A stretch of DNA of 36,679 nt, from positions 1-36,679 of the forward strand of contig JABFSU010000066.1 in NCBI GenBank assembly GCA_013140455.1. The letters run 5' to 3'. Of the stretch, positions 25,407 through 35,226 are shown piece by piece (position 1 is the stretch's first letter; the number at the start of each line of letters is the position of its first letter). The stretch comes from Nitrospira sp. Lineage in GTDB: Bacteria; Nitrospirota; Nitrospiria; Nitrospirales; Nitrospiraceae. Both the position numbers and the translations under genes were made by a program. The notes below the pieces were generated by a model. It made no database searches. It had not been told where the DNA came from and was given only the letters and a program-made list of their open reading frames with translations.

Positions 25407-28400
25407 ATGTTTTGTCACCGGTACACCAAGATTGTCCTGCTCTGTCTGTTCTGCCTGCTGTCTCCCCTCGGTGCCGCGGCTGATGCCAAGCCATCGACGA
25501 CGTCCAGCGACCGGTTGATTCGGCAACAGGACGACCTCTCCGCCCTCTGGAGCTTCTATCGGCAGACCTACATTCGCGCCGGGCGGGTGATCAGTCTGGA
25601 TGAACAGGGCGTCACGACGTCCGAAGGCCAGGGCTATGCCATGTTGCGGGCGGTCTGGTCGAACGATCGCCGCACGTTTGAGGAGGTGTGGCGCTGGACA
25701 CAAGCCTATCTCCAGGTCAGGCCGGACAAGCTCTTTGCCTGGAAGTGGAAAGGCAAGGTCCTGTCGCTGGATGCCGCGACCGACGCCGACACCGATATCG
25801 CGCTGGCTCTCATTCTGGCGTCGCGCCGGTTCGATATTCCTCGCTATGAGCAGGATTCCCTCGCGATTCTCTCTTCCATCTGGGATCTGGAGGTGCTGCA
25901 TCTGAGCACCGGCTCCTATGTCACAGCGGGAAACTGGGCGGTAGATGAAGCGTATCCAACGATCCATGTAGCGTATCTCGCGCCTTATGCCTACGAAGTG
26001 TTTGCGTCAGTCGATCAACGGCATCAGTGGCGGAAGTTGATCGAGAGTTCCTACGCCGTTCTGCATTGGCTCTATGATGTCCAACAGGTCTCGCTCCCGC
26101 CAGAACTGATCTATCTCGATAAAACCTCCGGCCGGTTTGTCATGACTCATCCCAAGTCCGGGCCGGCGGCGGAGTTCAGTTACGATGCGTTTCCGCTGTT
26201 CTGGCGCGTGGCGCTGGATGCCAGGTGGTTCGGCCGTTCAGAAGCGGGGCTGCGTGAGAAGATGCTGGGTTTCTTCTGGGGTGAGTGGAAGGCGCGAGGG
26301 AGGTTCGTCGATCGCTACACGGTTTCGGGGGAGTCGCGTTCGACGCTGGAAGGACTGCCGCTGTATGCGACGGTGCATGCGCTGGCTTCTCAGGAATTGC
26401 CGGAACTAGCCCGGCGGTTGTCCGAGCTCAAGCTCCCGCTGCTCCATGCCAATGCGTTGGCCGGCAAGGGCACGCCGTATTATCTGCACAACTGGCTGTG
26501 GTTCGATCGGGCTGTCGAGCTGGATCACGTACGGCGATACGACGAGTACTTCGCGTTTTTGCGGCCGTTCGATGTGGCAGGGTTCTCCGCACATTTTGCC
26601 TGGGAGCTGGTGGCCGTGACGCTGGTTCTCTTTCTCCTGGCTCGATGGCACTGGGTCTTGAAGGTGGCGTTTCTGGCCTGCGGGTTTGCGCTTTGCGTAC
26701 GGTATCTCGACTGGCGTGCGCATGAGACGTTGAATTGGGTCGAGGCCGGTGGGCCGTTCATCAGCCTGTCGCTCTGGTTCGCCGAACTCTATGCCTTTTC
26801 GACGGTCGCGCTTCTGCTTGTGCAGGTCGGAGTTGGCCGGAAACCGGTGGCATCGGGAGTCCCGATTGCGCCGACAGAATTTCAACCATCGGTCGATCTG
26901 TTGATCCCGATCTATTCAGAGTCCTGCGAGATTCTTGAGAAGACGCTGATCGGGGCGACGGCGATCGCCTATCTCAATAAGCGGATCTTCATCCTGGACG
27001 ACAGTCATCGTGAGGAGGTGCGGGTTCTCGCCGAGCGGTATGGAGCGACCTATTTCCAGGGGCCCAAGCGACATGCCAAAGCCGGCAATTTGAATCAGGC
27101 CCTGTCCCGGACGGAGGGAGAACTGATCGTCGTGTTCGACACCGATCATATTCCGGTCTCGACGTTCCTGAGCGAAACGGTCCCATACTTTGCCGACCCG
27201 CGCATGGGGTTCGTCCAGACGCCCCATCATTTCTACAATCAGGACATTTTTCAGCGGGCGCTCGGCACCGGAGTCCGGATTCCCAATGAGCAGGATCTGT
27301 TCAATCATGCCATTCAGGGAGGGCGGCATGCCTGGGGCGGGGCGTTCTTCGTCGGCAGCGGAGCGGTGTTCCGGCGGGCCGCTATTCAGGAGGTGAACGG
27401 CTTCAATCTGATGAGCATTACCGAGGACATCCATACCAGCCAGCACCTCCATGCCAGGGGGTGGAAATCCGCCTTTGTCGATAAGGATCTCGCAGTGGGG
27501 CTCACGGCGGAGAACCTCTCGTCGTACATTGTGCAACGACGGCGCTGGATGTTGGGATGTCTGCAAATCTTCGTGAAGGACAATCCGCTCTTCTGTCGCG
27601 GCCTGTCGTTGCGGCATCGGGTGGGCTACTTCGCGTCGTTATATTATTTCCTATTTCCCCTGGCTCGCGTCGTGTTCTGGATTACGCCGCTCTATTTTTT
27701 ACTGTTCCATCTCCACCCGATTTTGTCCGATGTCTCGATCCTGGTGGCCTATGTGTTGCCGTTTATGCTGATGCTGCCGTTATTGTCTTCGGTGCTGCTC
27801 CCGAGGTGGCCGCGGTTGCTCTGGTCGTCGACCTATGAGGCGACGGTCGCGTTCCCGCTCTTTCGCTCGATGTTCGATCTGTTTCTGCCGAAGCGGCTGG
27901 GATTCAAGGTCACCCCGAAGGGGATCACGTCGGCGCGCCGGACGTTCGATTGGCGGTCGTCGTCGAGTCTGCTGGTTGCCACGGTGATTACCATGGGGGC
28001 GATCGCGAAAGGTCTGTGGGAGTTCTGGTTTTTCGGAATCGAAAAAGACGCCTACTTCTTCAATCTCAGCTGGGCCGGGGTGAACCTGGTGACGCTGCTC
28101 ATCGGGTTGAGCATGGCCTGGGAGCGGCCGCAGCGGCGTGGAGAGGAGCGAATCAGCCGGCGCATCGACTGCAGGGTGGAGGCTCAGGGGGTGCAGTTCT
28201 CGACGGTCACGGATGACCTGAGTCTGTCCGGTCTGTCATTTCTCACGGCTTCGGCTGAGCCGATCCCTGGAGAGTTTGATGTGATATTGCAGGGACGGAC
28301 GTCGATGACCTGTCGGGCGCGGGTGTTGTATCACGAGGCGCTGTCTGGAAAGCGGATTCGCTGCGGGGTGGAATTTCTGGATGTGCAGGTAGCGCAGCGG

Positions 28401-28805
28401 CAGTGGCTCGTCGTCAATCTATTCGGCGATCCGGTGACCTGGGAGCGTGCGCATGATGCGCGCGTGCGCAGTCCGTTGCTGATGGCCGGGCATTTGTTGG
28501 CCGGATTCTGGCGGTCGTTGAAGGCGCCCGTCACGAGACGGCGGCGGATTCCGCGCCGTGGTTGTCTGGTTCCTGTGCGGATTCAGATCGGCCACGCCAG
28601 ACAGTGGGGGCTGGTACGCGATCGTTCCTCCCATGGCATAGGTGTACTCCTCTTCGGGCGGCCTGCCGAGTCGGCTGTCCCTTGGCTGATGGGCGAGCAG
28701 AAGAGACGGTATGAGCCCCTGTATGTCCGACGGCAATGGCTCTGGATCTGTCGGGCCGGGATACGACCGGCAGATCCGTTAGATTATTCGATCGTTCAGA
28801 AATAG
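25407..28805 (+). CDS. bcsA: GH8 cellulase - BcsA cellulose synthase - tandem PilZ fusion
   Basis: One 1132-residue protein combines parts that are separate genes elsewhere. A signal peptide leads into a GH8 (BcsZ-like) domain, about residues 30-385, with Glu73 (TSEGQGYAM), Asp128 (DADTDIAL) and Asp260 (SYDAFPL). Three membrane helices (about 400-490) follow, including the BcsA-type VRYLDWRAHETLNW segment. The GT2 domain has DD531-532, DTDHIP 578, TED 672-674 and QRRRW 710-714, then more helices with FKVTPKG. A first PilZ (RxxxR 915-919, DLSLSG 937) and a second (RIPRR 1047-1051, DRSSHG 1072) end the protein. It would make cellulose under c-di-GMP control with the hydrolase on the periplasmic side. 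No Shine-Dalgarno site is visible. Confidence 0.92.
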   Translation: MFCHRYTKIVLLCLFCLLSPLGAAADAKPSTTSSDRLIRQQDDLSALWSFYRQTYIRAGRVISLDEQGVTTSEGQGYAMLRAVWSNDRRTFEEVWRWTQAYLQVRPDKLFAWKWKGKVLSLDAATDADTDIALALILASRRFDIPRYEQDSLAILSSIWDLEVLHLSTGSYVTAGNWAVDEAYPTIHVAYLAPYAYEVFASVDQRHQWRKLIESSYAVLHWLYDVQQVSLPPELIYLDKTSGRFVMTHPKSGPAAEFSYDAFPLFWRVALDARWFGRSEAGLREKMLGFFWGEWKARGRFVDRYTVSGESRSTLEGLPLYATVHALASQELPELARRLSELKLPLLHANALAGKGTPYYLHNWLWFDRAVELDHVRRYDEYFAFLRPFDVAGFSAHFAWELVAVTLVLFLLARWHWVLKVAFLACGFALCVRYLDWRAHETLNWVEAGGPFISLSLWFAELYAFSTVALLLVQVGVGRKPVASGVPIAPTEFQPSVDLLIPIYSESCEILEKTLIGATAIAYLNKRIFILDDSHREEVRVLAERYGATYFQGPKRHAKAGNLNQALSRTEGELIVVFDTDHIPVSTFLSETVPYFADPRMGFVQTPHHFYNQDIFQRALGTGVRIPNEQDLFNHAIQGGRHAWGGAFFVGSGAVFRRAAIQEVNGFNLMSITEDIHTSQHLHARGWKSAFVDKDLAVGLTAENLSSYIVQRRRWMLGCLQIFVKDNPLFCRGLSLRHRVGYFASLYYFLFPLARVVFWITPLYFLLFHLHPILSDVSILVAYVLPFMLMLPLLSSVLLPRWPRLLWSSTYEATVAFPLFRSMFDLFLPKRLGFKVTPKGITSARRTFDWRSSSSLLVATVITMGAIAKGLWEFWFFGIEKDAYFFNLSWAGVNLVTLLIGLSMAWERPQRRGEERISRRIDCRVEAQGVQFSTVTDDLSLSGLSFLTASAEPIPGEFDVILQGRTSMTCRARVLYHEALSGKRIRCGVEFLDVQVAQRQWLVVNLFGDPVTWERAHDARVRSPLLMAGHLLAGFWRSLKAPVTRRRRIPRRGCLVPVRIQIGHARQWGLVRDRSSHGIGVLLFGRPAESAVPWLMGEQKRRYEPLYVRRQWLWICRAGIRPADPLDYSIVQK

Positions 28806-28818
28806 AAAGGTGTCAGGC

Positions 28819-30405
28819 ATGTTGTGTCGCCGGTTGTGTGCGCTCAGTGTTCTGCTTCTCATCTCATTCTGGGCGGCGGTTCCCGCGGGGGCCGATGATT
28901 TTGTGGAGTCCTGGTATATGTCCCGGGGCCGTTCCAATCTGGAGATTGAAAACTACAAGGCGGCGATCGAAGCCTTCGAGAAAGTCGTCGAGCGTGACCC
29001 GGGCAACCGTGAAGCCATGCGGAGCCTGGGGGTCGCCTACGAAAAACAGGGGTTGAAGGACAAGGCCATCGAACAGTTCGACCGCTATCTTGCCCGCTGG
29101 GACGACGATGCCGACATCGCCTTTGCCCAAGCGCGGGCGCTGGAATGGTCGCGTTACGCCTATCGCGAGAAGGATATGTTGAAGTATTACCGCATGGGGC
29201 TGAAGCGAAAGAACGATCCCGCGATGCGGTTGCGGTATGCGACGCATCTGGCCAGGCACAAAGAAACCAGTCAGGAAGCTGTCGCGCAGTACGACAAGGT
29301 ATTGGATGTGCAGCCGCGCAATGCCGAGGCCCATCGGGGATTGGCCAAAGCCTATGCCTGGCTCGGGCAGAACGATCTGGCCTTGTACCATGCCAATCTG
29401 GCGCGGCAGCAGACGAAACATGAATCGGGTGATCTGACGGCGCTTCGCCAGGACATGTCGAAGGGACGGGAGCCGGCCGTCGAAGGGGTGATAGGGGTGT
29501 TGGCGCAACCGGAGAAGCCCTATGAGCTGTACGGGTTCCGGATGGGTACGCGCGGCAAACTCGATATCTCGCCTTTTACGACGACCAAAGTGGAGATCGG
29601 GGCCGAGCATTTCTGGAACTCGTCGGAAAATCGTTCCGGCGCCTATCTGTCTCTGGGAAATCAAGTGCGATTCAACCCGTCGAATCGATTCGATGCGGTG
29701 CTGGAATATCATGGCGCGCCGCGCGGCGACGGCCTGGCCTATAAGTTTGAATACGCCTACGACGGGCCATCCTTTTCCATTCGACCCGGCGTGAAGCGGG
29801 AGTTTCGCTACGACTCATTCGCGGCCCTGGCCGGCTCGCGCAGTTCCGGTCAACTGGTGGGTTTGGCCCGGTCGACGCAGTTCTACAGTGAAGTCGCGTT
29901 CGACGTGGATGCGCTGCATGTGACTGTCACGCCCTTTGTCGGTTGGGTGACGGCGGAACAGCTGAAGTCGAACGATCAGGTGGGGGTGGATACGAAGGTC
30001 TCGTTGCCGCTCTGGCAGCAGGACAATTGGGAGATTGCCGGCGAGTACCTCTTCTATCTCACCCACTATGGAGAGAATCAGGGTGGCTTGCAGCCGAGCC
30101 CGCGGGAACCTCTTGCCGGCGGCTATTTCAGTCCGGAAGTGTTTATCAACCAGATCCCCCGGCTGGCTGCGACCTATAGCATGGACAATAAAGATGAACT
30201 GTATTTCGCCGCCGGTCCGGCTCTGCAGTATATCGACGAGGCGACGAAGTCAGCCGTGTTCCGTGTCGGAGGGGATGCGCACGTGGCCTATACCAAGCAT
30301 ATTTCCAAGCCCTGGCTTTTTAAGGTGATGGCGGACTACACGCAGATCGCCAGCATCTACATGCGGATCCAGGTGAATGGACTGTTGGTCTACACCTTCT
30401 ACTAG
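28819..30405 (+). CDS. BcsC-like TPR/outer-membrane porin, short form
   Basis: Probable outer-membrane exporter of the cellulose made by the upstream enzyme. The 528-residue protein has a signal peptide (VPAGADD), about four TPR repeats over residues 30-175 (for example ALRSLGVAYEKQGLKDKAIEQF-type helices), and a C-terminal beta-barrel with aromatic, Gly-rich strands ending in LLVYTFY, the terminal Phe/Tyr typical of barrels. E. coli BcsC is about 1150 residues with many more TPRs, so this is roughly half length. The ATG at 28819 has AAAGG 8 nt upstream and lies 13 nt after the synthase stop; the two form an operon. No BcsB gene follows. Confidence 0.85.
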   Translation: MLCRRLCALSVLLLISFWAAVPAGADDFVESWYMSRGRSNLEIENYKAAIEAFEKVVERDPGNREAMRSLGVAYEKQGLKDKAIEQFDRYLARWDDDADIAFAQARALEWSRYAYREKDMLKYYRMGLKRKNDPAMRLRYATHLARHKETSQEAVAQYDKVLDVQPRNAEAHRGLAKAYAWLGQNDLALYHANLARQQTKHESGDLTALRQDMSKGREPAVEGVIGVLAQPEKPYELYGFRMGTRGKLDISPFTTTKVEIGAEHFWNSSENRSGAYLSLGNQVRFNPSNRFDAVLEYHGAPRGDGLAYKFEYAYDGPSFSIRPGVKREFRYDSFAALAGSRSSGQLVGLARSTQFYSEVAFDVDALHVTVTPFVGWVTAEQLKSNDQVGVDTKVSLPLWQQDNWEIAGEYLFYLTHYGENQGGLQPSPREPLAGGYFSPEVFINQIPRLAATYSMDNKDELYFAAGPALQYIDEATKSAVFRVGGDAHVAYTKHISKPWLFKVMADYTQIASIYMRIQVNGLLVYTFY

Positions 30406-30431: not shown

Positions 30432-30980
30432 TTACGTGCGCTCTATAAATTCTTGCTGGAGCAGGCCGTAGAGTTCGAGATCGACGAACCGGCCGAAGCG
30501 GAGATAGTGTTCGCGCATGCGGCCTTCGTAGGTCATGCCTGCTTTTTGCAAGACCCGGCCTGAGGCGTCGTTGCCCAGAAAGTGCGGGGCATAGATGCGA
30601 TTCAAAGTCAGTTGTCCAAACCCATACGCGAGCACGGCTTTGACGGCTTCGGTCCCGTATCCGCGGTTCCAATAGGGGAGCCCAAGCCAGTAGCCGAGTC
30701 GCGCGTGCCGGTGGCTCTGGGCAATGTTCAGGCCGATCGATCCAATGAACGTCGCATTGTCCGCGAGGGTGATGGCGAAGCTGACGGCGGTGCCTTCCTC
30801 ATGGATCCGTTCCTGATCGGCGATCCATCGCTCGGCCATTCCGTCTTCATAGGGGTGGGGAAGGAATGTGCCGGCGGCAACTTCTTTGGCCCCCGCGAGC
30901 CGCTGCACGTCGGGCGCGTCCGAGAGTTGAAACTTCCGGAGCAGCAGTCGATCGGTCTTGAGCTGGGGGAAAGGTGCCAT
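30432..30980 (-). CDS. GNAT acetyltransferase (RimJ/RimL-like)
   Basis: 182-residue acetyl-CoA-dependent N-acetyltransferase. It starts with the LKTDRLLLRKF segment and has the acetyl-CoA loop NRGYGTEA (Asn105-Ala112), then VLQKAGMTYEGRMREH, as in enzymes that acetylate ribosomal protein N-termini or small amines. Cytoplasmic. No clear ribosome site precedes the ATG at 30980. It converges with the BcsC-like gene; its substrate cannot be inferred. Confidence 0.88.
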   Translation of the reverse strand: MAPFPQLKTDRLLLRKFQLSDAPDVQRLAGAKEVAAGTFLPHPYEDGMAERWIADQERIHEEGTAVSFAITLADNATFIGSIGLNIAQSHRHARLGYWLGLPYWNRGYGTEAVKAVLAYGFGQLTLNRIYAPHFLGNDASGRVLQKAGMTYEGRMREHYLRFGRFVDLELYGLLQQEFIERT

Positions 30981-31205: not shown

Positions 31206-31775
31206 TCACCAAACGAAGCGGCCCGTGATGGGAGCAGGAAAGGGTGTTAGGTGAAAGGATGTATTGGTATTCTTTGGTTCGGTAATCTTGTCTATGAACT
31301 GCTGCCAGCCCCCTCCCTTGGTGCTGAACCCCATAATGTCGCACTGGTAATCTACAGACTTTCCTGTCGGATCCTTCGGCATCGCCATGGTGGGATCCAT
31401 GAAACTGTCGACCGTCACGGGGATGACCACGCGTGCCGTCGTCACGAGCTGGCCCGCCGACACCGGTAGCTCAACTTGAGCGCCACGCGGCTGTTTGACC
31501 GGAGCGCCCTTACCCTTGCGCATGGGAAACGCGTCACTGGTCATGCTGCAAGTAACCATCACCTTCGTGATGTCGGGGGCCAGCTTGGTCAGGTCGAGCG
31601 GCACCTCGAAGGTGACGTCGCCCGGGATGCTCTTCCAGTCAACCACAGCATCGCCCTCATAGCGGCCCGCTTGCGCCGCCTCGGCGGGGCGCCACGCGGC
31701 GATGGTCGCGAGAACGATCAAGATGACAAGCATGAATGGCATGATGGCATTCCTTCCGAGGTGAAGCGATCGCAT
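31206..31775 (-). CDS. Exported hypothetical protein
   Basis: 189 residues from ATG 31775 with AAGGAG 7 nt upstream; a longer frame to 31922 is unsupported. The signal peptide ends at PAEAAQA. The mature domain is mostly beta (VTFEVPLDLTKLAPDITKVMVTC, LVTTARVVIPVTVD) with two Cys and reads like an immunoglobulin-type or similar beta-sandwich. I recognise no family. It is the last of five consecutive minus-strand genes for exported proteins. Confidence 0.72.
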   Translation of the reverse strand: MRSLHLGRNAIMPFMLVILIVLATIAAWRPAEAAQAGRYEGDAVVDWKSIPGDVTFEVPLDLTKLAPDITKVMVTCSMTSDAFPMRKGKGAPVKQPRGAQVELPVSAGQLVTTARVVIPVTVDSFMDPTMAMPKDPTGKSVDYQCDIMGFSTKGGGWQQFIDKITEPKNTNTSFHLTPFPAPITGRFVW

Positions 31776-31785
31776 CTTCGACTCC

Positions 31786-32691
31786 TTAAGGGGGTGGTAG
31801 GCTGCCAGTGCCGGTCCATCCCGGCACCTTGATGGTGCGTGGCACAATGGGAGTGGCAGTGCCCGCGGCGGTGAAGCCGCCCAATTGTATCCTCCTGGGC
31901 ACGACCGGAATCGCCGTCCCACTCGCGGTAAATCCTTTCAGCACGATCGTACGCGGGCCGGACCCAGATGAGCTTCCCAGCGCAAACTTAAAAGGTTGTC
32001 CATAGGACATGAAGTCCCAGTTCTTCCACACATACGTCGTGATCCCGTTGCGCGTGCTGGAGTCGAACGTCTGCTGTTTCGGCATGAAGATCACCGTTAC
32101 CCTGCCGCCGGCATCGAGCGTGATGGCGCCTGCATGCACGGCCGCCACGCAGATGGCTGAGGAACTGGTATAGACATCCGTGCCCCAGACGGACATGTCC
32201 GTATTGCCCTTCGGCGGACAGAGCAGAGTGAGGGGAGCATGGAAATCGTCGGGAACTCGGTCGAGTATCGTGTACCAGTCGATTTGCCCCGGCTCGCCGT
32301 TCTTGGTGAAGGAATATGTGGAATCAGCGGGACCGTAGCTGGAACTCTTCACGCCGTTGCGCTCCTTCGCTTCAAACGACTTGGTGCCAGGCCCTATGAC
32401 AATCGTGACCTGGCCGGATGCGCCAGGCGTGAATACCCCTGCGTGAACCGCAGCAGTACAAATAGGGGATTCGTACATATAGATGTCGGTCCCCCAGATT
32501 TCTCGGCTTGTATTGAGATTCGAGGGGCAGATGAACGTCAAAACCCTGCCAAGCTGGGATCGGTAGCCCACGGCACTTGTGCCTTCGTCCGCTACAAGCA
32601 CATGCTGCTGAGCGAGCGCGAGGCTCGGGACGAGCAGAAGCAGGAACGAAGCGCACCATTGAAACAGTTGTCGTATCGACGGCATCGTCAT
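31786..32691 (-). CDS. Exported protein with two LCCL domains and C-terminal repeats
   Basis: About 302 residues with a signal peptide (SLALAQQ). Two LCCL domains follow in tandem: the first with IWGTDIYMYESPICTAAVHAG and RNGVKSSSYG, the second with VWGTDVYTSSSAICVAAVHAG and RNGITTYVW. The Trp-Gly-Thr, Cys and His of the family are all kept. The last 55 residues are three near-repeats of PR-(T/R)-I-x-(L/V)-x-GFTA-x-GTA-x-P. LCCL domains are best known from secreted eukaryotic proteins. I set the start at 32691, with AAGGAT 5 nt upstream; ATG 32715, which overlaps the previous stop (ATGA), is the alternative. Ligand unknown. Confidence 0.85.
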   Translation of the reverse strand: MTMPSIRQLFQWCASFLLLLVPSLALAQQHVLVADEGTSAVGYRSQLGRVLTFICPSNLNTSREIWGTDIYMYESPICTAAVHAGVFTPGASGQVTIVIGPGTKSFEAKERNGVKSSSYGPADSTYSFTKNGEPGQIDWYTILDRVPDDFHAPLTLLCPPKGNTDMSVWGTDVYTSSSAICVAAVHAGAITLDAGGRVTVIFMPKQQTFDSSTRNGITTYVWKNWDFMSYGQPFKFALGSSSGSGPRTIVLKGFTASGTAIPVVPRRIQLGGFTAAGTATPIVPRTIKVPGWTGTGSLPPP

Positions 32692-32711
32692 CCGTATCCT
32701 TGCCGGCGCGA

Positions 32712-33209
32712 TCATCGATTGCTATTGTCGCAATCCGCTTGTTTGGTCAGCTCGCCTAGCTTCTTCAGTTCGGCTTCATGCGCGCGATAGAAATTGACAT
32801 TCGCCATCTTCACACCGGGCGGCAACTTGCCTCCAGGCTGTTCAAGCGACCAGGCGGCCAAGCCGTTCTGGAACACCGACCAGGAGAATACGAGGTACTC
32901 GCGCGACGTCATACCGGCTGCCTTGAGTGCGGCCTTCACCTCCGGAACTCCATCCAGGCGTGCCGCCAGGCCATTGAGAGACTGCGGGGCTTCGTCGTGA
33001 TCGCAATCTTGCGGCAATTGCTCCGCCAGCGGTTGCAGCTTGCGTACGGCTTGCCGGTACTTCGCCAGCGCCGCGTCGGTCAGCACGTAGCCGGCGATCT
33101 CGTTGGTGTCGCGATCCGCCAGATTCTGAGCCTCTGCCCACGTTGGCGTCAGTAGTGCGAGGGCAAAGGCGACTGTTACCGCGAGCATGGCCTTGAACGT
33201 ATTGAACAT
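32712..33209 (-). CDS. Exported hypothetical protein
   Basis: 165 residues from an ATG with GGAGGATC 8 nt upstream. The signal peptide covers residues 1-27 (TWAEAQN). The mature part is helical (ALAKYRQAVRKLQPLAEQL and ELKKLGELTKQ), with Cys near residue 69 and near the C-terminus. No family recognised. Its stop overlaps a possible start of the LCCL gene by 4 nt, so the two are coupled. Confidence 0.72.
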   Translation of the reverse strand: MFNTFKAMLAVTVAFALALLTPTWAEAQNLADRDTNEIAGYVLTDAALAKYRQAVRKLQPLAEQLPQDCDHDEAPQSLNGLAARLDGVPEVKAALKAAGMTSREYLVFSWSVFQNGLAAWSLEQPGGKLPPGVKMANVNFYRAHEAELKKLGELTKQADCDNSNR

Positions 33210-33235: not shown

Positions 33236-34474
33236 TTAAAATCCGAGTTCTTTCTCCAGATCCGCCTGGCCCTTCTTGAACTGTTTCTTTTCCGCCTCGT
33301 CTTTCTTCTTGGTGAGGGCATCCAGTTCTGCCGCACGTTTTTTCAGTGCCTCGCTCTCCTTCTTGCGTGCCAATTCTTCCTTCTCCTCCACGATCGAAGC
33401 GACTTGCGCCGTTTTGACTAAGTCGTCCGGCACTGTCATCCAGTTGAGACGATAGCCGGGCCGATTGAGCGCCACGTCTTGATAGATCACGACATACCGG
33501 GTGGGATAGCTGCGCTGGCCTATCTGCCGCTCTTCAAGAATATAGACAGTCGGCTCCTTGAAAAGGGCCGGCTGATATGAATCCAACTGCATCCCAGTGA
33601 ATTGGCTCATTTGAACCGATTGAACCTGCTCCATAAACTCGGTGAGCGCTTTGGCATCTCTTGGATCCGGTTTGATCTGTTCCAGTTGCTTGGCTTTATT
33701 CTTTTGAATCTGCTCTCTCGCCTCCTGCTCGTCTTGCAGTTGATAGCGGTATTTTTCCTGAAAATCATCCAGTTTGAACGGCCCCGTTTTAGCTCTTCCC
33801 TTGAAGAACCCTGCCGCCTCGTTCTTGCTTGTGTAGGACAGCCGGCCCGATGCAGCATCACTCCCATAGAACAGGTACGTGCTGTCCGGGGCAACCGGGA
33901 TCGAGTATTTGGCGGCATCGGCCGGAGTTTCCGGTGCCAGTCCCATTTTCATCGACGGCGTGCGCTGACTCAACAGACGGATGGCGCTGCTTTTGCCATG
34001 GGAGATCGCTTGGGATACGGCTCTTCTCACATCCGGCACCGGATCGTTGACAAGCGGCGCCAGCGCATCCACATCCTGATCCTGCGGGCCGATCATGCCG
34101 ATCGCATCCGCCGCGGCAATCCGCAATTCAGGTTCATGGCTCTTAAAGATCCCGAGAATCACCGGTAGGTAGGTGCGATCGGTGGAGGAGCCCAGCGTCT
34201 GCAAGTCTTCTTTGAAAATCTCAATGGCATCCTTTCTGATCTTATCGCAAGGGTCTGCCGGGGCCGGCTTGTTCGCGCATTGGTTGGTATACTGTCCGAC
34301 GAGCTGCTTTTTAGTCGCTGAAGCGCCCTGCGGTGCGCTCTCTTGCACTTTCTCTGGAGTTGAGCCGATTCCCCTGAGAGAGGTCGCCTCGGCCGGCATT
34401 GGAAGGTGGCCATAGACCGTAATGAAGACGGCGCCCGTCATAATGACCGATGTGTATGTCCTTGATATCTTCAT
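33236..34474 (-). CDS. Exported HEAT-repeat and coiled-coil protein
   Basis: 412 residues from ATG 34474, with GGAGGAGC just upstream. A signal peptide covers about residues 1-30 (MPAEATS). HEAT-like repeats at about 95-170 (LPVILGIFKSHEPELRIAAADAIG and the following unit) suggest a protein-binding scaffold. A central beta-type region is followed by a Lys/Glu-rich C-terminal coiled coil from about 365 to 412. No catalytic motif. Third of five minus-strand genes for exported proteins; the family is unrecognised beyond the HEAT repeats. Confidence 0.78.
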   Translation of the reverse strand: MKISRTYTSVIMTGAVFITVYGHLPMPAEATSLRGIGSTPEKVQESAPQGASATKKQLVGQYTNQCANKPAPADPCDKIRKDAIEIFKEDLQTLGSSTDRTYLPVILGIFKSHEPELRIAAADAIGMIGPQDQDVDALAPLVNDPVPDVRRAVSQAISHGKSSAIRLLSQRTPSMKMGLAPETPADAAKYSIPVAPDSTYLFYGSDAASGRLSYTSKNEAAGFFKGRAKTGPFKLDDFQEKYRYQLQDEQEAREQIQKNKAKQLEQIKPDPRDAKALTEFMEQVQSVQMSQFTGMQLDSYQPALFKEPTVYILEERQIGQRSYPTRYVVIYQDVALNRPGYRLNWMTVPDDLVKTAQVASIVEEKEELARKKESEALKKRAAELDALTKKKDEAEKKQFKKGQADLEKELGF

Positions 34475-34501: not shown

Positions 34502-35200
34502 CTACCGTAAAGCCTTCCTCAGACCGTTCACATCCTCAGAGGCCTCCTTGAGCTGTTCCTGCATAGATATCCTGCGCTCGAGCGCCCAGCGAACGCTTTT
34601 ATCCAGTGAACAATACTTCTTCATCGTGTCCAATTCGCGTTTGAGTCGCTCCATTTCTTTCTGATAGCCGGCCTGCTCCTCTCGCATGTAGTCCACTAAC
34701 CGCTGCTTGCTCCGCCAATCCACGAACGGATTCATGCTCTTATTGGCCTCGCAGGCTTTCTTGTGGACCGCTTCATGATCTTGGAGCGCGCCGCGCAAAC
34801 AGGGGGTCGCGTTCGGACTAATCTTGATGGTGCAGCCGGCATCCGTTTCCGCTGCAAACGATCGTGCGTTGGCCGTCCGAACGGTAGACATCCTGAAACC
34901 GACAGAGCCCTGGACGCTGCCCCGGTTGTCATCGGTGAGGAGTAACTGTTCCTTCCCGCTTCGTTCCTTGGCCTCCGTCTCTTTGATCAGGGATTCGTAC
35001 TCCTTGATCGCGGCCTCCACCTGCTTGATGCGGCTTTCAAGATCTGTCTTATCTTGCTCGCTGCAGCCGCAGCCGATCGGGTCATTCAGATGCTTTTTGA
35101 CCTCGGCATCGAGATCGAATTCGGCACGCGCGCCGGGTGGAAACCACAACAATGCCGTTGCCATGAGTACGCCATACGTGGCTGATTTGAAGATCGTCAT
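34502..35200 (-). CDS. Exported protein with HExxH motif, possible zinc peptidase
   Basis: 232 residues from ATG 35200, with GGGGGGAGT just upstream; an earlier start at 35218 is less likely. The signal peptide ends at GARAEF. A coiled coil at about 50-80 precedes a domain with HEAVH (His142-Glu143-His146) and Cys150, followed by EE at 175-176 (REEQAGYQKE), the spacing expected for a gluzincin metallopeptidase. A second coiled coil, 180-232, ends the protein. Catalytic activity is inference from the motif. First gene of the exported-protein operon, divergent from the membrane glycosyltransferase with only 26 bp between the start codons. Confidence 0.72.
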   Translation of the reverse strand: MTIFKSATYGVLMATALLWFPPGARAEFDLDAEVKKHLNDPIGCGCSEQDKTDLESRIKQVEAAIKEYESLIKETEAKERSGKEQLLLTDDNRGSVQGSVGFRMSTVRTANARSFAAETDAGCTIKISPNATPCLRGALQDHEAVHKKACEANKSMNPFVDWRSKQRLVDYMREEQAGYQKEMERLKRELDTMKKYCSLDKSVRWALERRISMQEQLKEASEDVNGLRKALR

Positions 35201-35226
35201 ACTCCCCCCTATACCCAATAGACCCG

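Follow-up and report, generated by a model that had tools for sequence, protein, structure and literature searches.

The window analysed here is the whole stretch of 36,679 nucleotides of contig JABFSU010000066.1, from the Nitrospira sp. assembly GCA_013140455.1. Five genes run in the same direction on its minus strand: a coiled-coil gene with a HEAVH motif, a HEAT-repeat gene, a gene termed F19, a gene with two LCCL domains and a gene termed F12, with successive spacings of 27, 26, -4 and 10 bases. F19, the LCCL gene and F12 are referred to below as the module. The run and the gene beyond F12 comprise:

34502..35218, minus strand: coiled-coil type protein with a HEAVH motif, first gene of the run; no Pfam match at E 0.01
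33236..34474, minus strand: HEAT-repeat protein (412 aa; PF13646, 3.7e-9), its gene preceding F19 by 26 bases
32712..33209, minus strand: F19, a secreted-type protein of 165 aa; no Pfam or NCBIfam family over the cut-off
31786..32715, minus strand: twin-LCCL protein of 309 aa, putatively secreted; ORF from the first ATG (PF03815, 4e-38), with orthologues in the related genomes G023, G030 and G203
31206..31775, minus strand: F12, a secreted-type protein of 189 aa; predicted beta-rich at modest confidence (pLDDT 66), no Pfam match at E 0.01
30432..30980, minus strand: GNAT acetyltransferase, beyond F12 (PF13302, 8.5e-34)

F19 runs 4 bases into the LCCL ORF, its stop codon overlapping the first ATG there, and the three module ORFs are all intact in the window. 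A fold search with F12 gave no match at E 0.001 or better. Promoter and terminator scans returned chance level only, and PADLOC detected no defence system at the module, its single hit being to the repeats of the HEAT gene. A phage origin was rejected, as no match was found in phage records, none in PHROGs and none was confirmed in viral contigs; a plasmid origin was rejected likewise, the only matches being partial ones in 3 plasmid records. The HEAVH of the secreted-type coiled-coil protein is an HExxH motif, and other short secreted proteins hold the place of this gene in G023, G030 and G203. On the plus strand, two genes occupy the segment 25407-30405 of the window. The first encodes a 1132-aa protein in which a GH8 glycosidase is fused to a glycosyltransferase of cellulose-synthase type and a PilZ domain; the product of the next has TPR repeats and weakly matches BcsC at its C-terminus. 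A fusion of the GH8-BcsA-PilZ kind is unusual.

The original prediction had given the LCCL gene the limits 31786-32691. Position 32691 is indeed an ATG of the frame but an internal one (residue 9), and the ORF extends to 32715; translation likely starts at an ATG in the interval 32715-32685, near which the homologues start. The following features were located along the protein:

32608..32685, minus strand: signal-peptide-like start, residues 11-36 (MPSIRQLFQW...ALA-QQ), read by eye; helix at 14-27 in the structural model
32338..32586, minus strand: LCCL domain 1, residues 44-126, with Cys63 and Cys86; profile match, model residues 37-139 aligning to 1jbi
32029..32277, minus strand: LCCL domain 2, residues 147-229, with Cys166 and Cys189; profile match, phmmer to cochlin 1jbi at E 1.4e-8
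31900..31956, minus strand: tail repeat 1, residues 254-272; period-19 test, predicted disordered (pLDDT ~40)
31843..31899, minus strand: tail repeat 2, residues 273-291; period-19 test and model
31789..31842, minus strand: tail repeat 3 (partial), residues 292-309; period-19 test and model

To the eye, residues 11-36 resemble a signal peptide of the Sec type, closing with ALA-QQ, and would direct export of the protein. The Pfam LCCL profile (PF03815) matches the ORF in two stretches with an E-value of 4e-38 and 129.9 bits, against a cut-off of 22.6. Scored singly in an LCCL search of the genome, the two units reach 71.0 and 63.3 bits, and this search found no second LCCL gene in the assembly. 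The motifs WGT, C-x-AAVHAG and RNG are present in both units. The tandem of LCCL domains first described from the sequence is therefore confirmed by the profile search, and the Nitrospira ORF is firmly a genuine and well-formed member of the LCCL family. The fold agrees with this assignment. In a predicted structure built from an alignment of 38 sequences, pLDDT is ~90 or more across most of both units, and residues 37-139 superpose on the LCCL domain of cochlin (1jbi) with a Z-score of 14.4 and an rmsd of 2.0 over 99 residues, at 23% identity. Each domain holds two cysteines (C63/C86 and C166/C189) that are kept in 4/4 orthologues, and these probably form one disulfide per domain.

Yeast Rxt3 chains come next after cochlin in the structure comparison, with Z-scores of 8.5-11.4, and the Pfam Rxt3 profile (PF08642) matches the ORF at 58.7 bits, above its cut-off of 29.9. 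As the LCCL score is more than twice the Rxt3 score, this match is taken to reflect a relation of fold, with LCCL the better filing. No Pfam family besides these two exceeded its cut-off on the protein. Rxt3 is a subunit of the nuclear Rpd3L/SIN3 histone deacetylase complex, and we know of no such complex in bacteria. This fungal protein, the other clear match besides cochlin, looks like a nuclear protein of LCCL fold.

The two domains are followed by a tail (residues 253-309) in which a 19-residue unit, PRxIxLxGFTAxGTAxPIV, occurs twice in full and once in part. Its self-match at period 19 covers 20/38 positions, a value reached by 0/20,000 shuffles, and the same test on the tails of the other three orthologues also gave 0/20,000 shuffles each. 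The three near-repeats of about 19 residues noticed originally are thus real, and the tail matches no family, as had been said. Residues 249-309 are modelled as disordered (pLDDT < 50 save one residue), the tail being covered by three sequences in the alignment of the model. Among the 175 genomes of the family Nitrospiraceae that were searched, only the four orthologues carry the tail at an E-value of 5e-13 or better, so that the repeat tail is lineage-specific. The tail was also considered as a motif common to other Nitrospira proteins and rejected as such: the next match, at 0.002 in G244, falls in a frame that by eye is metallo-beta-lactamase-like. In all six orthologue pairs, with synonymous sites near saturation in some, dN/dS is 0.16-0.36 for the tail compared to 0.08-0.30 for the LCCL units; since the whole range lies between 0.08 and 0.36 in 6/6 pairs, the LCCL gene including its tail is a coding sequence under purifying selection.

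Few relatives possess the gene. A family search identified LCCL in 4/59 relatives and in 6/198 genomes of the phylum, and a protein search in 11/175 genomes of the family, the own genome included in each count. These 11 comprise four genomes with orthologues (the own genome, G023, G030 and G203), five with other twin-LCCL genes (G118, G178, G192, G273 and G278) and two with fragments (G270 and G276). The order HEAT-F19-LCCL-F12 is found also in G023, G030 and G203, and the module is intact or nearly so in 4/175 family genomes. F12 occurs in the same four genomes as the LCCL orthologue, with two further weak matches over 38-39 leader residues only; F19 occurs in these four and in three degraded or partly kept sets. 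A full-length HEAT gene is present in 7/59 relatives, seven more giving weak partial matches only, and the module accompanies it in 3 of the 7 (G032, G005, G038 and G029 are without it). A separate search for this gene in three genomes was empty and does not enter the counts. In G032 and G029, the GNAT gene directly follows the HEAT gene with ~140 bases between them, which represents the site without the module. The sequence of this gap bears no clear likeness to the window junctions, and we therefore assign neither state, with or without the module, as the older one.

Several sets are degraded. G270 has F19 and only frame-broken pieces of the LCCL gene; in G272, F19 is disrupted and an LCCL match is absent; in G276, what is left is the end of F19 together with LCCL residues 1-30. 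In G030, F19 has two in-frame stops and the LCCL gene is intact, which indicates that F19 is not strictly needed. As the module is absent from some genomes with the HEAT gene, degraded in three others and stop-broken in F19 in G030, we consider it optional and being lost in several lines; being rare and decaying in relatives, the gene set cannot have an essential role. The Nitrospira LCCL gene is thus a rare accessory trait and F19-LCCL-F12 an accessory gene set, of which no prior description was found. The remnant in G276 (L144:5522-6706) adjoins, by eye, a HigA/RelE-like toxin-antitoxin pair, and an unrelated gene of 757 aa stands before the GNAT gene in that genome.

The domain itself is common among bacteria. 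A single-protein query of bacterial genome records gave no match; a domain alignment then revealed 78 bacterial loci encoding LCCL relatives in one pattern scan of named bacterial records, a lower bound because the scan relied on a single short motif pattern. The Nitrospira orthologues are represented among them by L019 and L020. By their titles, which can be wrong for metagenome bins, the records span about ten phyla: Proteobacteria (alpha, beta, gamma), Myxococcota and other former Deltaproteobacteria, Acidobacteria, Gemmatimonadetes, Chloroflexi (Anaerolineae), Bacteroidetes (Spirosoma), Actinobacteria, Leptospiraceae, Schekmanbacteria, Trueperaceae and one Oceanobacillus record. Among 86 proteins, the own one and those of other Nitrospirota included, 21 have one LCCL unit, 46 two, 16 three, 1 four and 2 five. 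The Pfam LCCL model matches 85/85 of the bacterial proteins scanned, 84 of which had been chosen by LCCL similarity; OmpA is an extra domain in 7 of the 85 and Peptidase_M57 in 4. LCCL is therefore widespread in bacteria and is not a eukaryotic oddity. The original statement that LCCL domains are known mainly from animals and apicomplexans does not hold for genomes; it stands for the experimental literature that we reached, which concerns these two groups. Paper searches, with subscription papers mostly outside their reach, yielded no article on an LCCL protein from bacteria, and the text available to us of PMC9848320, PMC10892792, PMC10672452 and PMC12839204 gave no description of one.

Other observations were made on these proteins. 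Read from their sequences, LCCL units appear fused to an OmpA-type C-terminal domain in the Proteobacteria loci L027, L032, L034, L044 and L046. The Pfam TolA C-terminal model matches 9/85 of the LCCL proteins (best 6.6e-8) and the Pfam Rxt3 model 74/85. Beside single-LCCL genes of gammaproteobacteria lies a divergent regulator of ~950 aa, with Trans_reg_C and TPR domains in the two that were scanned (L085:2873-5713 and L088:2894-5767); in L092 and L093, an ORF of similar length occupies the corresponding position.

A tree was built from 173 LCCL domains of 86 bacterial proteins, with no eukaryotic sequences. Within this set, the own units group with bacterial LCCL domains: unit 2 pairs with unit 2 of L021 (support 0.985) and unit 1 with unit 1 of L021 (0.834). 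As each unit pairs with its counterpart, the tandem predates the gene of Nitrospira. A recent transfer from a eukaryote is not supported, the nearest units being those of a gammaproteobacterial bin in a tree of bacterial domains and the identity to cochlin being 23%.

The genes adjoining LCCL genes were inspected one by one for the five other Nitrospiraceae loci, and each has an envelope gene within ~1.2 kb. In G118, an S11 carboxypeptidase gene lies 22 bases downstream of the LCCL gene; in G178, a coiled-coil OmpA gene lies upstream; in G273, a PBP1b-type synthase gene with a UB2H domain overlaps it by one base; in G278, a PBP1b-type synthase gene with UB2H is found ~1.1 kb downstream, followed by a bactofilin gene; in G192, MlaE and ABC ATPase genes lie downstream. 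In sister genomes of the lineage of the window, such as G270, the gene run is near S11 carboxypeptidase and DUF4412 genes. A general bacterial link of LCCL to cell-wall genes was considered and rejected. Around the 78 loci, 147 neighbour ORFs were picked mechanically, some of them shadows. A size limit removed one ORF with at least 1,100 aa and nine with 900-1,099 aa, leaving 137. The 25 commonest families of these 137 ORFs include none for cell-wall synthesis, the nearest to an envelope family being 2 OprB porins, and no difference or enrichment was seen with respect to 137 randomly drawn distant ORFs. The link between LCCL and envelope genes is accordingly claimed for Nitrospiraceae only.

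We consider the Nitrospira product most likely to be a periplasmic or surface protein that binds an envelope glycolipid or glycan, with F19 and F12 as an optional module; because the survey of 137 neighbours runs against the pattern in Nitrospiraceae, our belief in this explanation is held at about one half. In its favour are the envelope genes near the five other Nitrospiraceae LCCL genes, the OmpA fusions in 7 of the 85 proteins, and the close spacing and co-occurrence of the module genes. The protein would be exported by the Gram-negative Nitrospira cell and remain periplasmic or attached to the outer surface; its pair of LCCL domains may there jointly bind an envelope component, lipid A/LPS in the first place and peptidoglycan glycan in the second. 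In the parts available to us, PMC10892792 and PMC12839204 state that LCCL domains of animals bind lipid A, bacteria and sulfated glycans, and by analogy binding of LPS or polysaccharide by the Nitrospira protein is a reasonable proposal. The flexible, proline-containing tail may be a linker or a docking strip for the F19 and F12 products, the docking role being a guess, since the tail is modelled as disordered. LCCL, F19 and F12 would then form an optional envelope module behind the HEAT-repeat gene.

Two alternatives keep some weight. A released protein could bind other bacteria, protists or extracellular polysaccharide, working in the manner of the animal LCCL proteins as an adhesin or an antibacterial factor outside the cell. 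We judge this rather unlikely. Animal LCCL peptides bind bacteria (PMC12839204, in the part available), the module is accessory and decaying as is often the case for surface traits, and exopolysaccharide is plausibly made nearby in view of the GH8-cellulose synthase-PilZ and BcsC-like genes at 25407-30405; on the other hand, PADLOC assigned the module to no defence family, G276 and G029 retain cellulose genes without a working module, and the LCCL genes of other Nitrospiraceae adjoin housekeeping envelope genes. Alternatively, the LCCL domains could be protein-protein modules, the protein serving as a scaffold for F19, F12 and the HEAT-repeat product without a glycan or lipid ligand, as the fold of Rxt3 within a nuclear complex and its Pfam score would allow and as the tight clustering and co-occurrence of the module genes might suggest. 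Such a scaffold is likewise a fairly improbable answer: Rxt3 is not exported and in the alignment lacks the cysteine of the CxAAVH core, and the LCCL loci of other phyla are without F19, F12 or HEAT neighbours. The broken or incomplete copies of G270, G272 and G276, the F19 stops in G030 and the module-free sites of G032 and G029 might suggest that the gene is a decaying relic with no present function in this genome, but this is very improbable in view of the three intact module ORFs in the window and of dN/dS values of 0.08-0.36 for the LCCL gene in 6/6 pairs.

A broader form of the envelope explanation, which we find unlikely, would make LCCL an ancient bacterial envelope-binding domain. The Nitrospiraceae proteins would work in the periplasm together with the machinery of the cell wall and outer membrane, perhaps regulating the adjoining PBP1b-type synthases in G273 and G278, and the innate-immunity proteins of animals that attach to bacterial surfaces would be a later re-use of LCCL. 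Should bacteria employ LCCL on their own envelope, the known affinity of cochlin and CRISPLD2 for bacterial surfaces would have a simple evolutionary explanation, and small LCCL proteins of bacteria would offer convenient models for locating the ligand site; the interest rests mainly on what bacterial LCCL binds.

The closest known structure is human cochlin LCCL (1jbi; Z 14.4, rmsd 2.0), with which the Nitrospira domains have in common the cysteines of the CP and IC-x-AAVH motifs. In contrast to cochlin, the Nitrospira protein is bacterial, has only two cysteines per domain, a tandem of domains and a repeat tail, and is devoid of vWA domains. Like CRISPLD1/2 (Lgl1; SCP and two LCCL), it has two tandem LCCL domains in what its sequence suggests to be a protein of exported type; it differs from them in having no SCP/CAP domain by Pfam and in domains that group with bacterial ones in a tree without eukaryotic LCCL. 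Outside Nitrospira, L021, from the gammaproteobacterial bin SJ809, is the nearest relative for both LCCL units, but that protein is 794 aa long, with no GFTAxGTA tail and with a long unrelated C-terminal part. The proteins of G118, G178, G192, G273 and G278 have the same two LCCL domains and signal-like start, whereas they are without tail repeats, stand in other neighbourhoods and are 33-49% identical in the matched parts.
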